Source: Verrucomicrobiota bacterium (GTDB taxonomy: Bacteria > Verrucomicrobiota > Verrucomicrobiia > Limisphaerales > J093). From it: 61,932 bases of DNA. The notes under the pieces are model-generated. The model made no database searches. It saw only the letters and a list, made by a program, of their open reading frames with translations, and was not told where the DNA came from. Location: the NCBI GenBank assembly GCA_022710935.1, contig JAKLFY010000038.1:1-61932 (forward strand). Direction: 5' to 3'. Positions 36,702 to 53,524 of this stretch are shown in pieces. The position numbers and the translations under genes were made by a program. Positions within the stretch are counted from its first letter, which is position 1; the number at the start of each line of letters is the position of its first letter.

Positions 36702-37478
36702 ATGAGCACAGACAAGCCCAGCAACGATACGAGCCCGACACCTCCCTCATCCGGGGGCGGCATCGAGCGCGTCGTCTTCGCAACGACGCATTGGTCGGTG
36801 GTGCTTTCGGCTCGCGACCTCGAATCGCCCCAGTCGGCGGCGGCGCTCGAGACGCTCTGCCGGGCTTATTGGTATCCACTCTATGCCTTTGTGCGTCGCG
36901 CGGGCCACAGCCCCGCGGACGCCGAGGACCTGACCCAGGGCTTCTTCGAGCGGTTGCTGGAGAAGAGTTACCTGACCGCCGCATCGCGGGAGAAGGGCCG
37001 GTTCCGCACATTCCTCCTCACGGCCTTGCAGCGGTTTCTGGCCAACGCCTGGGACCGTCAACACGCCCGGAAACGGGGCGGATTTGCCGCGTCCGTGACC
37101 GTCGATCAGGCGTTGGCGGAATCGCGGCTGGCCGCCGACCTTTCCGACACGCTTCAGCCCGACGTGCTGTTCGACCGCCAATGGGCGATGACGCTGCTGG
37201 AGCGGACCATGGCCACGCTCGAAGCCGAGTATGCGGCGACGGGGCGGGCGAGCCTTTTCGAGCATCTGCGAGGCTGCCTGGCCAAGGAGGAATCGCGTTT
37301 GTCCTACGCGGAGATTGCCGCCCGGCTCAAGCTCACCGAGGCTGCAGTCAAGATGGCCGTACACCGCCTGCGCACGCGTTATCGCGCTCTCCTGCGCGCG
37401 GAAATCGCGCACACCGTGTCGGCGCCTGAGGAAATCGACCAGGAGATCCGGCACCTCTTCACGGCCTTCGGTCCCTGA
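36702..37478 (+). CDS. ECF-type sigma factor, Verrucomicrobia kinase-linked group
   Basis: A 258-residue RNA polymerase sigma factor. Region 2 is YWYPLYAFVRRAGHSPADAE then DLTQGFFERLL; region 4 is LSYAEIAARLKLTEAAVKM followed by AVHRLRTRYRALLR, the helix-turn-helix that reads the -35 box. It starts with the FATTHWSVVLSARD segment, seen also in the second sigma of this window, and has an extended linker. Its gene is followed 72 bp downstream by a Ser/Thr kinase gene, a standard pairing in this phylum; the kinase probably controls the sigma factor by phosphorylation. No anti-sigma factor is adjacent. Confidence 0.9.
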   Translation: MSTDKPSNDTSPTPPSSGGGIERVVFATTHWSVVLSARDLESPQSAAALETLCRAYWYPLYAFVRRAGHSPADAEDLTQGFFERLLEKSYLTAASREKGRFRTFLLTALQRFLANAWDRQHARKRGGFAASVTVDQALAESRLAADLSDTLQPDVLFDRQWAMTLLERTMATLEAEYAATGRASLFEHLRGCLAKEESRLSYAEIAARLKLTEAAVKMAVHRLRTRYRALLRAEIAHTVSAPEEIDQEIRHLFTAFGP

Positions 37479-37550
37479 ATCGAGCCCACTGACGGTGGCG
37501 TTACCTTGCCGCGCTTTTGCTTAAGAGGCTGATGGAAAGGACGCGATACA

Positions 37551-40500
37551 ATGTCTAAGCCTGAACAGCCTTCCTCGCCTCGCCGGTGCGCACAATGTGG
37601 GGCCGAGCTTCCCGGCAACGTGCCGGCGGACCTGTGTCCGAAATGCCTCCTGCGGGCCGGGTTGGACACTCAACCGATCGCAGCCGGTGATGGAACCGTC
37701 ATCGATTCGGAACAACCGAGACCGGCGCGCGGACTGCCCCAGCCGGGCGAACAGCTTGGGCATTACCAGATCGTGCGGCGGTTGGGCGAGGGCGGGATGG
37801 GGGCGGTGTATGAGGCGGAAGACCTCGAAAACGGGCGCCGGGTTGCGCTTAAGGTTCTGAGTCACACGCTGGATTCACCCGAGGCGCGCGAGCGGTTCTT
37901 CCGGGAAGGCCGGCTGGCGGCCTCGATCAATCATCCCAACAGCGTCTATGTCTTCGGCACCGAGGAGATCGGCGGCACGCCTGTCATCGCGATGGAACGG
38001 GTGGCGGGCGGCACGCTGCAAGAGCGGGTGCAGGCCGCGGGCCCGCTGCCGGTGGGGCGTGCGGTGGATGCCGTGCTCGAAGTCATCGCCGGCCTCGATG
38101 CCGCCCAGCGCATCGGCGTTCTGCACCGGGATGTGAAGCCGTCGAATTGCTTCATCGATGCCGACGGCACGGTGAAGATCGGCGACTTCGGCCTGTCGAT
38201 TTCCACGGCGATCCGCACCGAACCCGCTCTGACGGCGACCGGGATGTTTCTGGGCACGCCGGCGTTCTGTTCGCCGGAACAGTTGCGGGGCGACGAACTC
38301 AATGCGCGGTCGGACTTGTACTCGGTGGGCGCCACCTTGTTCTACCTGTTGACCGGCCACACGCCATTCGAGGGAAAGAACGCCGTGCAACTGCTGGCCA
38401 CCGTGCTCGAACAGCGCGCGCCCTCGCCCAGGAAACACCGCCCGAACATTCCCCGAGGTCTGGGCCAGGTCGTCTCCCGCTGTCTCGAGAAGCTGCCGGG
38501 CGACCGCTTCCGATCCTACGACGAACTGCGCCAGGCCCTCGCTCCCTACAGTTCGACGGCCCCGACGCCGGCGACGTTGGGATTTCGGTTCCTGGCCGGC
38601 GGGTTGGACCTGCTCATCCTCAACCTGGTCTTCCTGGCGGTCGTTGTGCCGTTGTCGGGCAGTCCGATGGAGTTCTTGAACCAGGCGCATCAGCGCTCGC
38701 CGGGGGCGTTGGCAGTGCTCGTCGGGGTTGGGGTGCTGTCAGTCCTCTACTACGCGCTGCTCGATGGCCTTCGAGGCGCGAGCCCCGGCAAGGCCCTGTG
38801 CGGCCTGCGCGTGATCGGGGCGGACCGGGGCACGCCGGGATTCGGGCGGGCGCTGGGACGGGCTCTGTGCTATGTCGTGCTGCCCCCGTTGCCGTTCTGG
38901 CTGGTTTACGGTCCAGACCCGACGGCTTACCTGAATGCGCCTTCGCCCATACGGCACCTGATGGGTTTCTCATTCTACATTGTGCTCGGGCTCCTCTTCT
39001 GCACTGTCCGGCGGAGCAACGGCTTCGCGGCCGTGCACGATCTCCTTACTCGAACACGCGTGGTTTCCCGACTCGCACTGCGGGCGCGTCCGACCCTGGG
39101 TGCCGCGCAAACGCCGTCGACGGAAACCGTCAGCGGGCCTGCTGTGGGCCCGTATCAGGTGCTCGAGACCCTCGAAACCTCCGCCGGCGCCGCTTGGCTG
39201 CTCTGTTATGATTTGCGCCTGCTCCGCAAGGTGTGGTTGCGCAAGGTCCCGTCCGGCACACCACCCATGCCGCCGCACCTGCGCAGCCTCGGGCGTGTGG
39301 GGCGCCTGCGTTGGATTGCGGGACGCCGCGCACCGGAGGAGAACTGGGACGCGTTCGAGGCGCTGGCGGGCCTACCGCTGGTCAGCCTGATCGGGGAACC
39401 ACAGCCTTGGGACCGGGTCAGGTTTTGGCTGCACGACCTGGCCAGCGAAATCAGTGCGGCGGAGAAGGACGGCACGCTGCCCGCCGTGCTCGGCTTGGAC
39501 AGGATCTGGATCACGGACGCCGGCCGCGCCAAGCTGCTCGATTTTCCCGCCCCGGGCGCGCTTTCCAGCGCGAATCGAGGGGAGGCGAATCGAGGGGAGG
39601 CGCTTGCGTCACCCGATCCAGAGCCACCGGCTAATCGGCGGACCGAAGCGCGTGATTTCCTGGGCCAGGTCGCTCGGGCGGCTCTCGAAGGGAGAGGCGC
39701 CGGGACAACCGGTCCGGCTGGCTTGTCCGCGGCCGTGCCGTTGCCGTTGCACGCCCGGAAGTTCATCGAGGCATTTGGCGAGTGGGCGAGCGCGCAGGCG
39801 ATCGCCACAGCCCTCGAACCATTGCTGTCACGGGTGACCGTCGTGTCCCGCGCGCGGCGTATGGGGGTGGTGGCCGCATGCGTGGCGGTGCCGGCGTTTA
39901 TGACACTGGGCATGGTGTTTGGCCTGAAGATGCTCGATCGGATGAACCGTGCCCAGCCAGGTATTGTCCAGTTGAATGCGCTGTTAGCGCAGCGGGCGGC
40001 GGGGCACTCGAAGTGGATGAAGAGCGGATCCGGCCCGGACGACCGCTTGATCGCCATCTACATCGCAGAGCACTTTCGCTCGACGATCACGAACACGGAA
40101 ACCTGGAGCAGTCCGTTTGTCGCGTCGATGATCAGCGGTGAGAATCGCCAGTTCGCCGAACGCAGCGTGCTCGAACATCCCCGCCCGACGGCGCAGGAGG
40201 TCGAGGAGGCTGGGAGGGCGCTGAAACCGTATGTTGAGGCGTCCAGTTCACCGGGCATTCTCCAGGAGCGATGGTTTCCTTTTATGGTGTTTCTCGTAGG
40301 TTTGTGTGTTTATGTGGGGCTGCCCGCCCTGCTGTGCGCGTTGGCCTTTCGTGGAGGGCTCGTGTTGAGGGCACTGGGGGTGGCCATCGTGCGTAAGGAC
40401 GGCGCGCCGGCCTCGCGCCTGCGGGTCTTCTGGCGTGGCCTGGTGGCGTGGTCACCCGTCCTGCTCGCGCCACTGCTGTTTGGGATGCTCAAAGGGCCGC

Positions 40501-40625
40501 TTGGCCCGGTCTGGGCCGCGGTGCTGCCGGGCCTGCTGGCGATTGGCCTGACCATTCTCTCGCTGGCGGATCGGCAGCGCAACCTGCAGGATCGGATCGC
40601 AGGCGCCTGGCTGGTCCCGCGCTAA
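37551..40625 (+). CDS. Ser/Thr protein kinase with zinc ribbon and RDD domains
   Basis: A 1024-residue membrane kinase. A zinc ribbon (C13, C16, C29, C32) is followed by a Hanks-type kinase domain: GEGGMGAVYEAED (P-loop, ~78-90), ALKVL (ATP lysine), HRDVKPSN (catalytic loop, ~192-199), IGDFGLS (~208-214) and GTPAFCSPEQL. Residues ~340-500 form an RDD membrane domain (FRFLAGGLDLLILNLVFLAV), a second degenerate kinase-like region follows (PYQVLETLE, about 530-760), and another RDD-like membrane part closes the protein (~910-1024). A 15-bp tandem duplication adds NRGEANRGEA near 39574-39604. It is the cognate kinase of the preceding sigma factor. Confidence 0.9.
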   Translation: MSKPEQPSSPRRCAQCGAELPGNVPADLCPKCLLRAGLDTQPIAAGDGTVIDSEQPRPARGLPQPGEQLGHYQIVRRLGEGGMGAVYEAEDLENGRRVALKVLSHTLDSPEARERFFREGRLAASINHPNSVYVFGTEEIGGTPVIAMERVAGGTLQERVQAAGPLPVGRAVDAVLEVIAGLDAAQRIGVLHRDVKPSNCFIDADGTVKIGDFGLSISTAIRTEPALTATGMFLGTPAFCSPEQLRGDELNARSDLYSVGATLFYLLTGHTPFEGKNAVQLLATVLEQRAPSPRKHRPNIPRGLGQVVSRCLEKLPGDRFRSYDELRQALAPYSSTAPTPATLGFRFLAGGLDLLILNLVFLAVVVPLSGSPMEFLNQAHQRSPGALAVLVGVGVLSVLYYALLDGLRGASPGKALCGLRVIGADRGTPGFGRALGRALCYVVLPPLPFWLVYGPDPTAYLNAPSPIRHLMGFSFYIVLGLLFCTVRRSNGFAAVHDLLTRTRVVSRLALRARPTLGAAQTPSTETVSGPAVGPYQVLETLETSAGAAWLLCYDLRLLRKVWLRKVPSGTPPMPPHLRSLGRVGRLRWIAGRRAPEENWDAFEALAGLPLVSLIGEPQPWDRVRFWLHDLASEISAAEKDGTLPAVLGLDRIWITDAGRAKLLDFPAPGALSSANRGEANRGEALASPDPEPPANRRTEARDFLGQVARAALEGRGAGTTGPAGLSAAVPLPLHARKFIEAFGEWASAQAIATALEPLLSRVTVVSRARRMGVVAACVAVPAFMTLGMVFGLKMLDRMNRAQPGIVQLNALLAQRAAGHSKWMKSGSGPDDRLIAIYIAEHFRSTITNTETWSSPFVASMISGENRQFAERSVLEHPRPTAQEVEEAGRALKPYVEASSSPGILQERWFPFMVFLVGLCVYVGLPALLCALAFRGGLVLRALGVAIVRKDGAPASRLRVFWRGLVAWSPVLLAPLLFGMLKGPLGPVWAAVLPGLLAIGLTILSLADRQRNLQDRIAGAWLVPR

Positions 40626-48680: not shown

Positions 48681-50171
48681 TCAAGGCGGCATGACAGAAA
48701 TGAAGAAATAGCCCTGCGGATCCGGCCATGTGTTGGTGACGCTCATGAGTTCGCCGGTGCCGACCATCTCGTCGAACAGGTTCCAAACCGTGTCGCGGTC
48801 GTCCAGTTCGAGGGCGAAATAGACGGTGTAGTCGTGGCCCGCGGCCGTGGGGAAGTCGGCCGCGACCCCCTCTGGCACCTTGCGGCAACCCGCCATCAGG
48901 AGGACGTCCAGCGCGTTTTTGGGGTCGGTTCCGGCAGCCCATTCCTGCCAGTCCAGGAAGCCATCCGCATCGTAGTCCGTGACGCCATCGGCCCGGAACA
49001 ACTGTCCGAACTGTTCTCGCTCCCAGGCGTCCGCCAGGCCGTCGTTGTCGGTGTCGTCCGCCCGCGGCGCGGCGACGGTAAAGTGCCAAAGGGGACCATC
49101 GCGAAAACAGTCCGTGCCGCCCAGCGATCGGACCCACCAGTCATGGGTGCCGGCCGTGAAGGCGGCCGCGGGCATGAACGAGTTGTCCGGACCAGTGGCC
49201 CATCGGGTGAAGGGTTGGGTGATCGCGGTGCGCCCCCAGACCTCGTAGCCGGTGACTCCTTGGCATGCTTTCCAGCTCAGCGAAAGGGCGCCGTTATTGG
49301 TCAATGCGTAGTTGCCCAACACCGGTGCGCTGGGCAGTTCGGGGGCGACGACCAGTGTTTGTTGGGCGTCGGCCCAGGCGGTGGCGGCGTCGAAGAGCCA
49401 ATTCGTTCGGGCCGCATCGAGGTACCAGCCTTCCCGGGTGCTCCAACGCCCCAGGTTGTCCTGCACCCGCGCATAGAGCGGGTATTGGGCGCAGTAATTG
49501 GTGCCGACCGAGAGGGTAGTGTCCGTGGCTTGCAAGGTCACTTCGCCGACTGGCGAGTTGGGGACTTGTTTGATCTGCATCGGATGGCCTGTCCCGGCGG
49601 CTGCGTAGGGATTGTCGGTCCATTCGGCGGCGACGATGGCCAGTTCGTTTGCGACGTAAAAGACGGTTGCATTGGTCAGGCCCCAATCGCCATTCGAGTC
49701 CTTGCACCGGACAAAGAGCGTATGCCGGCCAGTCGAGAGATTCGTCGTCGCCACGTTCGGAATAACATAGTCCTCCGCGCTTCCGCCCCAGGCGCCATCC
49801 GCAGGGAGTGGGATGGGCGTGCCGTTGCCCGGCCCCGGATCGGCATCGACGAAGAGTTCGGCGGCGGTGAGCGAGGCGGGGCCCGACACGCGGAACCATT
49901 GTCCTTGCCAGGCGCACCAGACGCCGTTGGTGTCGGCCATGCGCACTTCGAGGTAATGGGGGCCGACGCTGAGGTTGGCGGCGCTGACGTCGAGTGCGAA
50001 GGATCCTTGCCAGTATTGGGTTCGGCTGGTGTCGCTGCTGACGAGCGGGAGGGCTTGGGCGGTCCCGCCATCAAGGCGGAACTGGGCTTCGAGTCGTGGT
50101 TGGGCGAGGGCCGGCAGGGCGGCGGCGGCCCACAACGCCACGGCGCACAAACAGAGAGGGAGGGGATTCAT
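48681..50171 (-). CDS. Secreted protein with Ca-binding type-3 repeats
   Basis: A 496-residue secreted protein. The signal is LCLCAVALWAAAALPALAQ. The body has repeated beta-sandwich units (VGPHYLEVRMADTNGVW, LSTGRHTLFVRCKDSNGDWG, LYARVQDNLGRWST), then an FN3-like region (GALSLSWKACQGVTGYEVWG). It has thrombospondin type-3/dockerin-like calcium motifs DTDNDGLADAWE and DYDADGFLDWQEWAAGTDP, and a C-terminal domain. No catalytic motif is seen; a surface or adhesive role is likely. ATG 50171 gives the signal peptide; the longer frame is spurious. It is 35 bp downstream of the beta-helix gene, probably in one transcript. Confidence 0.78.
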   Translation of the reverse strand: MNPLPLCLCAVALWAAAALPALAQPRLEAQFRLDGGTAQALPLVSSDTSRTQYWQGSFALDVSAANLSVGPHYLEVRMADTNGVWCAWQGQWFRVSGPASLTAAELFVDADPGPGNGTPIPLPADGAWGGSAEDYVIPNVATTNLSTGRHTLFVRCKDSNGDWGLTNATVFYVANELAIVAAEWTDNPYAAAGTGHPMQIKQVPNSPVGEVTLQATDTTLSVGTNYCAQYPLYARVQDNLGRWSTREGWYLDAARTNWLFDAATAWADAQQTLVVAPELPSAPVLGNYALTNNGALSLSWKACQGVTGYEVWGRTAITQPFTRWATGPDNSFMPAAAFTAGTHDWWVRSLGGTDCFRDGPLWHFTVAAPRADDTDNDGLADAWEREQFGQLFRADGVTDYDADGFLDWQEWAAGTDPKNALDVLLMAGCRKVPEGVAADFPTAAGHDYTVYFALELDDRDTVWNLFDEMVGTGELMSVTNTWPDPQGYFFISVMPP

Positions 50172-50206
50172 GGGAAACCTCCTGGCATAGGGGTGTTGGG
50201 GTGCAG

Positions 50207-51235
50207 TCAGCGCGCGGCGCCGGTGGCCCGGATGGTGAAGGTGCCGCCGCGGGGGACCATGCCCTGGTCGATGGTGACGCTGCGGATGAAGGGGCCGTCG
50301 TTGGGACTGGTGTAGAAGTTTTGAGCGCCTGGACCGCCGTACGCGCCGATGTCGTTGCACGTGCCGTCCGGGTCCAGGAAGCCAATGCCAGGGTGGCCCA
50401 TGTCCTTGCAGGGGGAGGTGGGAAGGAGGCGGAAATCGATGCCGCAAGAACTCACCATGCCGCCGACGAATTCGGGCGAGAGCTCGATCGAATGGCTTCC
50501 GGGATGGTACGGTGCCGTCGTCCCGATCGGGTAGACGTATTTCCCTACGATGTTCCCCACGTAACAGTTGTAATTCAGAGTGATGGACCCCGAATTGTCG
50601 TTGTCGCCGTTGCTGTTCGTCTCGATGGCGTAGCGGCTATTGCCGATGAAGATGTTGTTCATGGCGACAAGAGTCGGCCACCAGAAAGCCCCGTTATGGT
50701 ACAAGCCATTGAGCATCAGTCCACTGCCACCGTTGGCCACCATGATGCAGTTGTAAATCTGGACGTTGGGTGCGACGGCAGATTCCGAACGTTGGATGAG
50801 CAGCCCGTGTGAGGTATTGCCGCAAAACACACAATTCCGGAGGCGGAGAGTGCCCTCGGTCGGCTGCACCAGGCCGTAGCGCTTGCCGCTCGAGATGGCC
50901 AGGCCCTCGATTCGAACGGTGATCCCCCGGTTGATGCTGATCGTGTCGGTGCCCGCGGATCCATCGATCCGCGTCGTGTGCGGGCCGTCGTAGCCGTAGA
51001 TGGAGATCGCTTTGGTAACCGCCAGATTTTCCGCATACGTGCCTGGAAGCACGATGATTTCGGTCGCGCCGGCGTCGTTGATCGCCGCCTGGATGGTGTC
51101 GTAGGGCGCGCTCGGAGTTCCCGTGCCGCCGGGACCGTAGCGCTGGTCTACGTAGATCGTTTCGGCCATCGCGCCAGGCAGGAGGGTCGCCAGGGCGAGA
51201 GCACTGAATGCTACTGTCGTCGCTGTTCGCTTCAT
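50207..51235 (-). CDS. Secreted right-handed beta-helix protein
   Basis: A 342-residue exported protein with signal TTVAFSALALATLLPGAMA and a pectate-lyase/parallel-beta-helix body. It opens with IYVDQRYGPGGTGTPSAPYD and TIQAAINDAGATEIIVLPG, followed by helical rungs (RIEGLAISSGKRYGLV, LRLRNCVFCGNTSHGLLI, VQIYNCIMVANGGSGLML). It ends near a proline/cysteine-poor tail containing SPCKDMGHPG and NDIGAYGGPGAQ, typical of choice-of-anchor or polysaccharide-binding helix proteins. No polysaccharide lyase catalytic triad is visible. Precedes the type-3 repeat protein in the same direction. Confidence 0.82.
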   Translation of the reverse strand: MKRTATTVAFSALALATLLPGAMAETIYVDQRYGPGGTGTPSAPYDTIQAAINDAGATEIIVLPGTYAENLAVTKAISIYGYDGPHTTRIDGSAGTDTISINRGITVRIEGLAISSGKRYGLVQPTEGTLRLRNCVFCGNTSHGLLIQRSESAVAPNVQIYNCIMVANGGSGLMLNGLYHNGAFWWPTLVAMNNIFIGNSRYAIETNSNGDNDNSGSITLNYNCYVGNIVGKYVYPIGTTAPYHPGSHSIELSPEFVGGMVSSCGIDFRLLPTSPCKDMGHPGIGFLDPDGTCNDIGAYGGPGAQNFYTSPNDGPFIRSVTIDQGMVPRGGTFTIRATGAAR

Positions 51236-51495
51236 GGTTTGTCGTTCTTGTTGGCCGGAACCCTGACGCTGGCTGCCGCGGTCCGAGGGGGCGGGCGGGC
51301 CGGACGGCGCCCGCGCACGAGTCCGCGGCGGCAACCCGGATTCCGGGATTCAAAGGGTTACTACGGGAAAGCCAGCGGCCGATTACGCGAATTCGCGGAG
51401 GGAGTCTTTGCGGACTTGGCGCATTGAACTGGAAACGCACAAGTCGGTGCGAAGTGTCTGTTCCATTTCAGACGTGAGATCTCACATCTGAAGGA

Positions 51496-52608
51496 CTAGC
51501 GGAGGCGCCGCACCCAGCGGGCGGTCATCCAGAGGTCACAAGAGAACTTGTGGTCGGCCACCTGGCGGCGGTCCGTGCCGTCCGCAGCCATTGTCCACAG
51601 TTCGAGGTTCCCACCGCCAGGGGTGTCTTCGGTGACAAAGAGCAGCCGACGCCCGTCGGGTGAGGCGGCCAGCGGATAGTTGAATCCGTGCCAGCCGGTG
51701 AGCGCTTGGAGATTGGTCTGGCCCAACTCGCAGGCGACGATGGCCATATCTGGCACGCGATTGCCGGGACGTGCATGGCGGCACCAGGCCACGCGGTTTG
51801 TGCTCAGCCAGACGAGGCTTTCGTCCGCGGTGCCGGCGTTGCGGTCGAGGCGGTCGTCGTCCTCCCAGACCACCTGGACATTTTGGCCATCGAGATCGCA
51901 AATGAAGACATCCATCGTTGGCGCCCAGGCGCCATTCTGCGGGTTGCAGAGCAAGCGCGTGCGGTCCGGCGACAGGGCGATGCTGCCGGAGAATCCGTTG
52001 GGCGTGACGCTGGCCCAATCGAAGAGTTTCCTTTGGTTTCGGGTGTCGATGATGATGTTTGCCGGCTTGAGGTCGCGGTGAAGAACCCCGTGTTGGTGGG
52101 CATGGTGGACGGCCTCAGCGATCGCCTGCAGATAGCGCGCGGCTTGCCGGGCAGGCAGCGGTCCGCCGTCGGCCAGGCCCGACAAGGTCTGGCCCTCGAT
52201 GAAGTCCATCGAGAAGTAGTGGCGGCCTTCGTGGACGCCGATCTCGTGGATGGCCACGATGTTCGGGTGCTGGAGGCTGGCCGCCGCTTCCGCCTCGGTG
52301 TGGAATCGCCGCACAGATTCCTCAGTCGAGAAGTCGCCGTGCAGGAGCATCTTCACCGCGACCAAGCGGTTGAGACTGACCTGACGGGCCTTGAAGACCA
52401 CGCCCATGCTGCCGCGACCGATCTCCTCGAGCAGTTCGTAATCGCCGAAATAGCGGACACGCGGCGGATCGGTCCAGGCGGCGGGCGCGGCCAGCGCCAG
52501 TCTGGCAACGCAGTGCGGGCACAAACCGGCCAACAGGCCGGCGGAAACGGGGGCCCCACAGTGCGGGCAAGCCACAGGATGGCCGGCGGGCTCGGACACG
52601 CTCATCAT
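51496..52608 (-). pseudogene. Truncated Ser/Thr kinase fused to WD40-like propeller
   Basis: A 370-residue chimera in one open frame. Residues 1-191 are a kinase N-lobe plus catalytic loop: zinc ribbon (C14, C17, C30, C33), IGRGSMGVVFKAR, ATP lysine K86 (VAVKML), and HRDLKPANIIID (177-188). Then, where DFG should follow, the sequence runs on as RNQRKLFDWASVTPNG and becomes a PD40/TolB-type propeller (IALSPDRTRLLCNP, LAASPDGRRLLFVTED, ELWTMAADGTDRRQ). The DFG, activation loop and whole C-lobe are missing. This looks like a deletion that joined a kinase to a nearby propeller gene, near 52035. It cannot be an ordinary kinase, although a stable ATP-binding fusion is not excluded. Confidence 0.75.
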
Positions 52609-52650: not shown

Positions 52651-53403
52651 TCACTGACACAACACTTGCAGCAAGTAGCACATCTCCTGAGCCACGTCAC
52701 CCGGCTCCCGCACCGTCTGCGCCACCTCGGCCCGAATGCACTCGCGGTAGCGCTGACGCAGCCGATGCACAGCCACCGCCACGGCTTCACCGCTCAAGCC
52801 GAGTGCGCGTCCGGCAGCGGCGTAATCCTGGGCGTTGCCTTCAGCCGCCAGAAACGCCCCCAGCGCGGCGAAGTGCAGGGCTTTGTCCCGCACCTCGAAT
52901 TCCTGCTGCAACGCGACAAAGGCGCGGTTGAGCGTCGTCGTGGCCCACGAGCGATCGTAGGTCATTTCAGGCGGGCGATCGCTGGCGGTTTCCTGGGCAC
53001 ACTGGTGCTCGGCGAGGTCGGAATCGAGCGGCAGGAGAGCCTGTTTGCCGCCGCGTTTTGCGCTGCGTTCGCGGTCGTGTTGGTCGGTCACGAAGTGCTG
53101 GAGCGACTTGAGCAGATACGAACGGAACTTGCCCTTTTCCGGACTCAGAGCGGCGAATGAATCGCGGGCCAGGAGGTGGGCGAAGAACGCCTGGGCGAGA
53201 TCCTGGGCGTCGGCCTGGTCGCGGCCCAATCGACGCAAGTAGGCGTAGACGGGTGGCCAGTAGGTTCGGCAGAGGGTGTCGAGTGCTTCGGCCCGGCGCG
53301 CCGCGTCCGCCTTGCCGATGGCGAGAACAACGCTCCAATGCGTGGCCGCGAACCACCCATCGGTGCGGCAGCCATTTTGGTCGATGCGGGCGTGGGTCTG
53401 CAT
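52651..53403 (-). CDS. ECF-type sigma factor, second copy
   Basis: A 250-residue sigma factor of the same group as the one at 36702: WFAATHWSVVLAIGKAD, region 2 TYWPPVYAYLRRLGRDQADAQ and LAQAFFAHLLARDSF, then region 4 QDYAAAGRALGLSGEAVAVA and VHRLRQRYRECIRAE. It normally pairs with the downstream kinase, but here the kinase is truncated and fused to a propeller. ATG 53403 is chosen; the upstream TTG at 53460 would add an unconserved segment. Its fate without a working kinase is unknown. Confidence 0.9.
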   Translation of the reverse strand: MQTHARIDQNGCRTDGWFAATHWSVVLAIGKADAARRAEALDTLCRTYWPPVYAYLRRLGRDQADAQDLAQAFFAHLLARDSFAALSPEKGKFRSYLLKSLQHFVTDQHDRERSAKRGGKQALLPLDSDLAEHQCAQETASDRPPEMTYDRSWATTTLNRAFVALQQEFEVRDKALHFAALGAFLAAEGNAQDYAAAGRALGLSGEAVAVAVHRLRQRYRECIRAEVAQTVREPGDVAQEMCYLLQVLCQ

Positions 53404-53524
53404 CGTTGGCTTCGAATGGTCAGGCTGACGGCTGCCAGCCTGCCGCAACGCCTCGGGCAAGTCAACGGCGTGCGGTGATGGACCGCGCCGGCAGACTCGA
53501 ACAAGAGAATTGCTGCGCGTGCCA

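Follow-up and report, generated by a model that had tools for sequence, protein, structure and literature searches.

What is a protein in which a kinase domain ends just after its catalytic loop and passes directly into a β-propeller? The question is raised by a gene within a stretch of 61,932 nucleotides (the window) from contig JAKLFY010000038.1 of a Verrucomicrobiota bacterium. An earlier note, made from the letters of the DNA, had proposed two answers, i.e., a pseudogene left by a deletion of about a kilobase, or a novel ATP-binding sensor. The features needed to address the question are the following.

52651–53460, minus strand: upstream ECF-type sigma factor gene, intact, with the sigma-2.2 motif DAQD (Pfam; TIGR02937; motif)
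51496–52608, minus strand: truncated sensor-kinase gene encoding 370 aa (ORF list; Pfam; alignment with a full-length ortholog)
52501–52575, minus strand: zinc-ribbon-like segment CPHC...CPHC, residues 12–36 (weak Pfam zinc-ribbon matches; alignments)
52048–52446, minus strand: retained kinase part, residues 55–187 (Pfam Pkinase; leave-one-out HMM; AF2)
52036–52047, minus strand: deletion junction, residues 188–191, DTRN (pairwise alignment and count)
51499–52035, minus strand: retained C-terminal propeller part, residues 192–370 (alignments with the relatives G013 and G096, see below)
51467–51492, minus strand: near-perfect hairpin just 3' of the stop codon (inverted repeat; RNA fold z = −3.0)
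50207–51334, minus strand: downstream gene for a right-handed β-helix protein, syntenic in G013, where its product is 53% identical (Pfam; synteny)

The open reading frame, which runs on the minus strand from 52608 to 51496, starts with ATG and comprises 370 codons, and its sequence includes HRDLKPANIIIDTRNQRKLFDWASVTPNGFSGSIALSPDR. The encoded protein consists, in this order, of the zinc ribbon, a kinase N-lobe, the segment HRDLKPANIIIDTRNQ and a propeller part beginning with RKLFDW. The zinc-ribbon-like segment is shared, according to alignments, with a full-length ortholog and with paralogous kinases. The retained kinase part contains the glycine-rich loop, the β3 lysine, helix C and the HRDLKPAN catalytic loop, and the combination of glycine-rich loop, β3 lysine and HRD loop places it among the Hanks-type Ser/Thr kinases. 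Residues 57–199 match positions 1–143 of the 263 positions of the Pfam Pkinase profile (PF00069; 5.5e-31); past position 143, no Pkinase match was found, and the DFG motif, the activation loop and the C-lobe are absent from the frame. The Pfam PD40 match in the propeller part is weak (residues 316–338; 8e-4, under the curated cut-off). No transmembrane helix was detected in the protein, the peak 19-residue hydropathy being 1.52 and lying within the zinc-ribbon region. In the AF2 model, only the kinase N-half was modelled, with pLDDT mostly above 90, and the tail remained below 50. The model was informed by three sequences only, for which reason the low confidence of the tail was set aside as a sign of misfolding.

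The DFG motif is found 20–23 residues past the start of HRD in all 52 of the other readable kinases of the window genome and its relatives; the count was restricted to readable sequences, and one short-frame kinase masked with N was left out. The window protein is the only kinase examined that lacks DFG at that spacing, and its absence cannot be ascribed to chance because every one of the 52 others carries the motif. The frame, the Pfam matches and this comparison bear out the description of the protein, in the earlier note, as a kinase that extends through HRDLKPAN and continues as a PD40-type propeller without DFG, activation loop or C-lobe. The same fusion was also sought among the relatives' short-frame kinases, and every readable one has DFG. 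In three paralogs in the window genome, the Pfam match halts near profile position 149 and DFG follows in frame. That the family normally has extra sequence separating the catalytic loop from DFG was considered and rejected, as the inserts of these three paralogs fall after DFG, in the activation loop. The inserts (L009, L010 and L011, on contigs C206, C211 and C13 of the window genome) are ~60–115 residues long, rich in low-complexity sequence, and located between DFG and an SPEQ/SPEM motif. The window itself contains a second sigma/kinase pair at 36702–40625, which consists of a plus-strand sigma gene followed by a gene for a 1025-aa kinase with DFG; the kinase N-half of this pair is the most divergent among those compared.

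A search for full-length kinase-propeller orthologs, as the earlier note had advised, yielded one. It is found in Verrucomicrobiales isolate H5_VER1 (contig JABTUJ010000008.1; G013), which belongs to the same family as the window genome. In this locus (G013:C79), a sigma gene, a gene for a 669-aa protein with zinc ribbon, kinase, transmembrane and propeller segments, and a β-helix gene follow each other in one orientation. The identities to the window proteins are 43% for the sigma factor, 59% for the kinase N-half, 50% for the propeller part, and 53% for the β-helix protein. The 669-aa protein shows a complete Pfam Pkinase match and has a hydrophobic segment at ~367–385 (19-residue hydropathy 1.84), which is deleted in the window protein. 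Its best PDB matches are PknB kinases, and its AF2 model displays a confident kinase domain, a low-confidence linker and transmembrane region, and then a series of strands, modelled with fair to good confidence and consistent with a propeller. Thus, the two genes agree in gene order, zinc ribbon, kinase N-half and C-terminal propeller part, but the G013 gene, unlike the window gene, still encodes DFG, a C-lobe, a transmembrane helix and an entire propeller.

The extent of the difference can be counted. The stretch between the flanking aligned residues is 285 residues long in the ortholog and four (DTRN) in the window protein, so that 281 aa net, or 843 bp, are missing and the reading frame is kept exactly. 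Along with DFG and the activation loop, the deletion has taken the C-lobe, the transmembrane helix and the first ~105 aa of the propeller. Hence, a complete propeller of the G013 type is not present in the window protein, as in the ortholog another ~105 aa of propeller precede the part retained here; the C-terminal ends of the two proteins lie near the same point in the alignment. Since the syntenic ortholog contains exactly the parts that are missing, the view that the gene is a pseudogene generated by a deletion of about a kilobase is now well supported. The relatives have the motifs D-x-[DN]-Q at the kinase-side edge and E-T-R-x-x-R-K at the propeller-side edge of the deletion. A few bases may have been common to both edges, though relatives at this distance do not allow such microhomology to be resolved.

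Read without its relatives, the protein appears chimeric, as if recombination had joined a kinase fragment to an unrelated propeller gene without any deletion within a gene. This possibility deserves hardly any credence, as a single G013 protein of 669 aa, encoded at the same locus between the same neighbours, aligns with both parts in the same order; barring convergence at the G013 locus, the syntenic ortholog refutes it.

The family to which the gene belongs is sparsely represented. The fusion, which the earlier note suggested looking for in related genomes, was not found in any of 320 genomes of the order or in the GTDB-r220 contigs. When the tail was used as a query against the same 320 genomes, only the G013 gene and a relic in G096 (65% identity) were retrieved, the remaining matches being weak propellers. 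A scan of the GTDB contigs with the window tail alone gave no match, and one with a three-sequence alignment returned only these two relatives. The relic is located in uncultured Verrucomicrobia Loclat_bin-20771 (CAINDV010000602.1; locus L046, 2262–4187; G096:C602), and it encodes in one frame the end of a C-lobe, a transmembrane helix and the start of a propeller; ahead of these lies other sequence, and beyond them the frame changes. Like the window gene, it is a broken copy, and its propeller is 63–65% identical to residues 192–370 of the window protein, but it has neither the N-lobe nor the end of the propeller, its break lying elsewhere. Judging from these searches, the kinase-propeller family appears to be rare, with two of its three known copies broken.

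The Pfam Beta_helix match of the β-helix gene (8.6e-5) is below its cut-off. This gene and the next downstream gene, which encodes TSP3 repeats and 'AEWFVD' repeats (window 48681–51334), also adjoin each other in G096 (L105), and more distant relatives of both were found in G047 (L106). In the stretches read at these two loci, no sigma/kinase pair lies beside the β-helix gene, and an intact kinase was sought, without success, on the contigs of G096 and G047 on which the β-helix gene is found. The hairpin at 51467–51492 is formed by the palindrome TTCAGACGTGAGATCTCACATCTGAA, which occurs as a single copy in the genome; it possibly represents a terminator without a T run. A scan for promoters and terminators gave no signal above chance.

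An apparent deletion could also be produced during assembly if the full gene were present in the genome and the assembler had skipped ~843 bp. With 259 contigs, the assembly is fragmented, and its contamination is estimated at 4.29%, which would leave room for such an error. However, the join is exactly in frame, the sequence shared between the edges, as inferred from the relatives, is at most ~12 bases, far below assembler k-mers, and codon usage is uniform apart from a few codons at the junction. Furthermore, the deleted propeller part has no match elsewhere in the window genome's assembly; a search of this genome with the missing piece retrieved only the C-lobes and transmembrane regions of other kinases. 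Misassembly at the junction is, therefore, unlikely, and an artefact of this kind is given only a small chance.

The retained half of the kinase shows no sign of decay. A leave-one-out profile of its relatives, built without the window sequence and without its duplicate locus L101, gives it 229 bits and rank 27 of 40. It deviates at one of 32 highly conserved sites, and third-position GC and codon usage do not differ between the two sides of the junction, apart from a few rare codons right at the join. As no decay is seen in this half, either the deletion is young or selection still acts on the remnant. In simulations, a neutral frame of the remnant's make-up stayed open in about half of the cases at 2% substitutions per site; at 5% neutral substitutions, ~20% stayed open when no indels were allowed, and 1.6% when indels made up 5% of the changes. 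Thus, if neutral, the remnant is young. Alternatively, the open frame and the intact-like N-half could reflect purifying selection, and in a single genome, recent loss and retention look alike. The earlier note had called the frame conserved over 370 codons; it is indeed open over that length, but conservation does not apply, as the fused form was found in no other genome searched.

Retention would mean that the short protein is functional, with the zinc ribbon and the N-lobe binding the sigma factor or another partner and the product acting as a soluble, non-catalytic scaffold or decoy. In favour of this possibility are the open frame, the intact ATP-site residues of the N-lobe, the intact catalytic loop, the unchanged codon usage and the adjoining intact sigma gene, and there are bacterial pseudokinases in which the DFG motif is altered or missing (PMC12599244). 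A functional pseudokinase, however, would be expected to have a fold across both lobes and to be conserved across genomes. In the window protein, the kinase domain is halved rather than merely catalytically mutated, with the C-lobe absent from DFG onward, the propeller is partial, and no second genome contains the fusion; the tail of the model has a pLDDT below 50, although only three sequences stand behind it. A functional short protein is accordingly considered improbable, and the more specific proposal that zinc ribbon and N-lobe were kept as a small soluble non-catalytic sigma regulator, so that a membrane sensor kinase became a decoy in the cytoplasm, slightly more so. In contrast, an intact ortholog and the loss of essential parts, two hallmarks of a pseudogene, are evident.

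Altogether, the window gene very probably derives, by an in-frame deletion, from a gene for a membrane sensor kinase that lay between the ECF-type sigma and β-helix genes. The ancestor, of the G013 type, would have consisted of a zinc ribbon and a Ser/Thr kinase in the cytoplasm, one transmembrane helix and, given this presumed topology, an outward-facing propeller, and by analogy with ECF43 systems it may have phosphorylated the neighbouring sigma factor. The net loss of ~843 bp would then have removed the Mg-binding DFG, the activation loop, the C-lobe, the membrane anchor and the first part of the propeller, leaving a remnant that is most likely recent and non-functional. Established kinase biochemistry predicts that the 370-aa product lacks phosphotransfer. 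To judge by its sequence, it can be neither a kinase nor a transmembrane sensor, and a membrane-spanning sensor cannot form because the transmembrane helix and the first propeller part are deleted. With these parts gone and the fusion found in no other genome searched, the suggestion of a novel ATP-binding sensor is not upheld. Since the gene is complete at the corresponding position in the relative G013, the case is one of ordinary gene loss, not of a new kind of protein, and it concerns a deletion in one of the many sigma/kinase pairs of this genome. More generally, a kinase N-half attached to a propeller should not be called a new architecture before a syntenic intact gene has been sought.

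The closest solved structures to the kinase part, by sequence and fold, are Ser/Thr kinases of the PknB/StkP type, from which it differs in stopping after the catalytic loop. The upstream sigma gene is intact, as the earlier note had stated, with matches to Pfam Sigma70_r2 (1.6e-8) and to NCBIfam TIGR02937, the latter above its cut-off. Its position beside a transmembrane kinase gene, as preserved in G013, is reminiscent of the ECF43-type pairs EcfP-PknT and EcfK-PknS, in which the sigma gene adjoins a gene for a Hanks-type transmembrane kinase (PMC8999054, PMC13147305). In the ECF43 type, the acidic motif of region 2.2 is replaced by phosphorylatable residues; EcfP has STTA at this position and is inactive until phosphorylated (PMC8999054). 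The window locus differs from these pairs in that its kinase is destroyed, in that the proteins belong to other sequence families, and in that the sigma factor has the acidic motif DAQD where EcfP has STTA (DAED in the G013 sigma factor), and thus does not conform to the ECF43 type. Since the sigma factor keeps this acidic motif, phosphorylation need not be a prerequisite for its binding to RNA polymerase, and it may be functional without the kinase. The locus thereby represents a natural knockout, in which the sigma gene remains and the presumed kinase is gone, and it marks a pair whose sigma factor, unlike EcfP, may act without its kinase.
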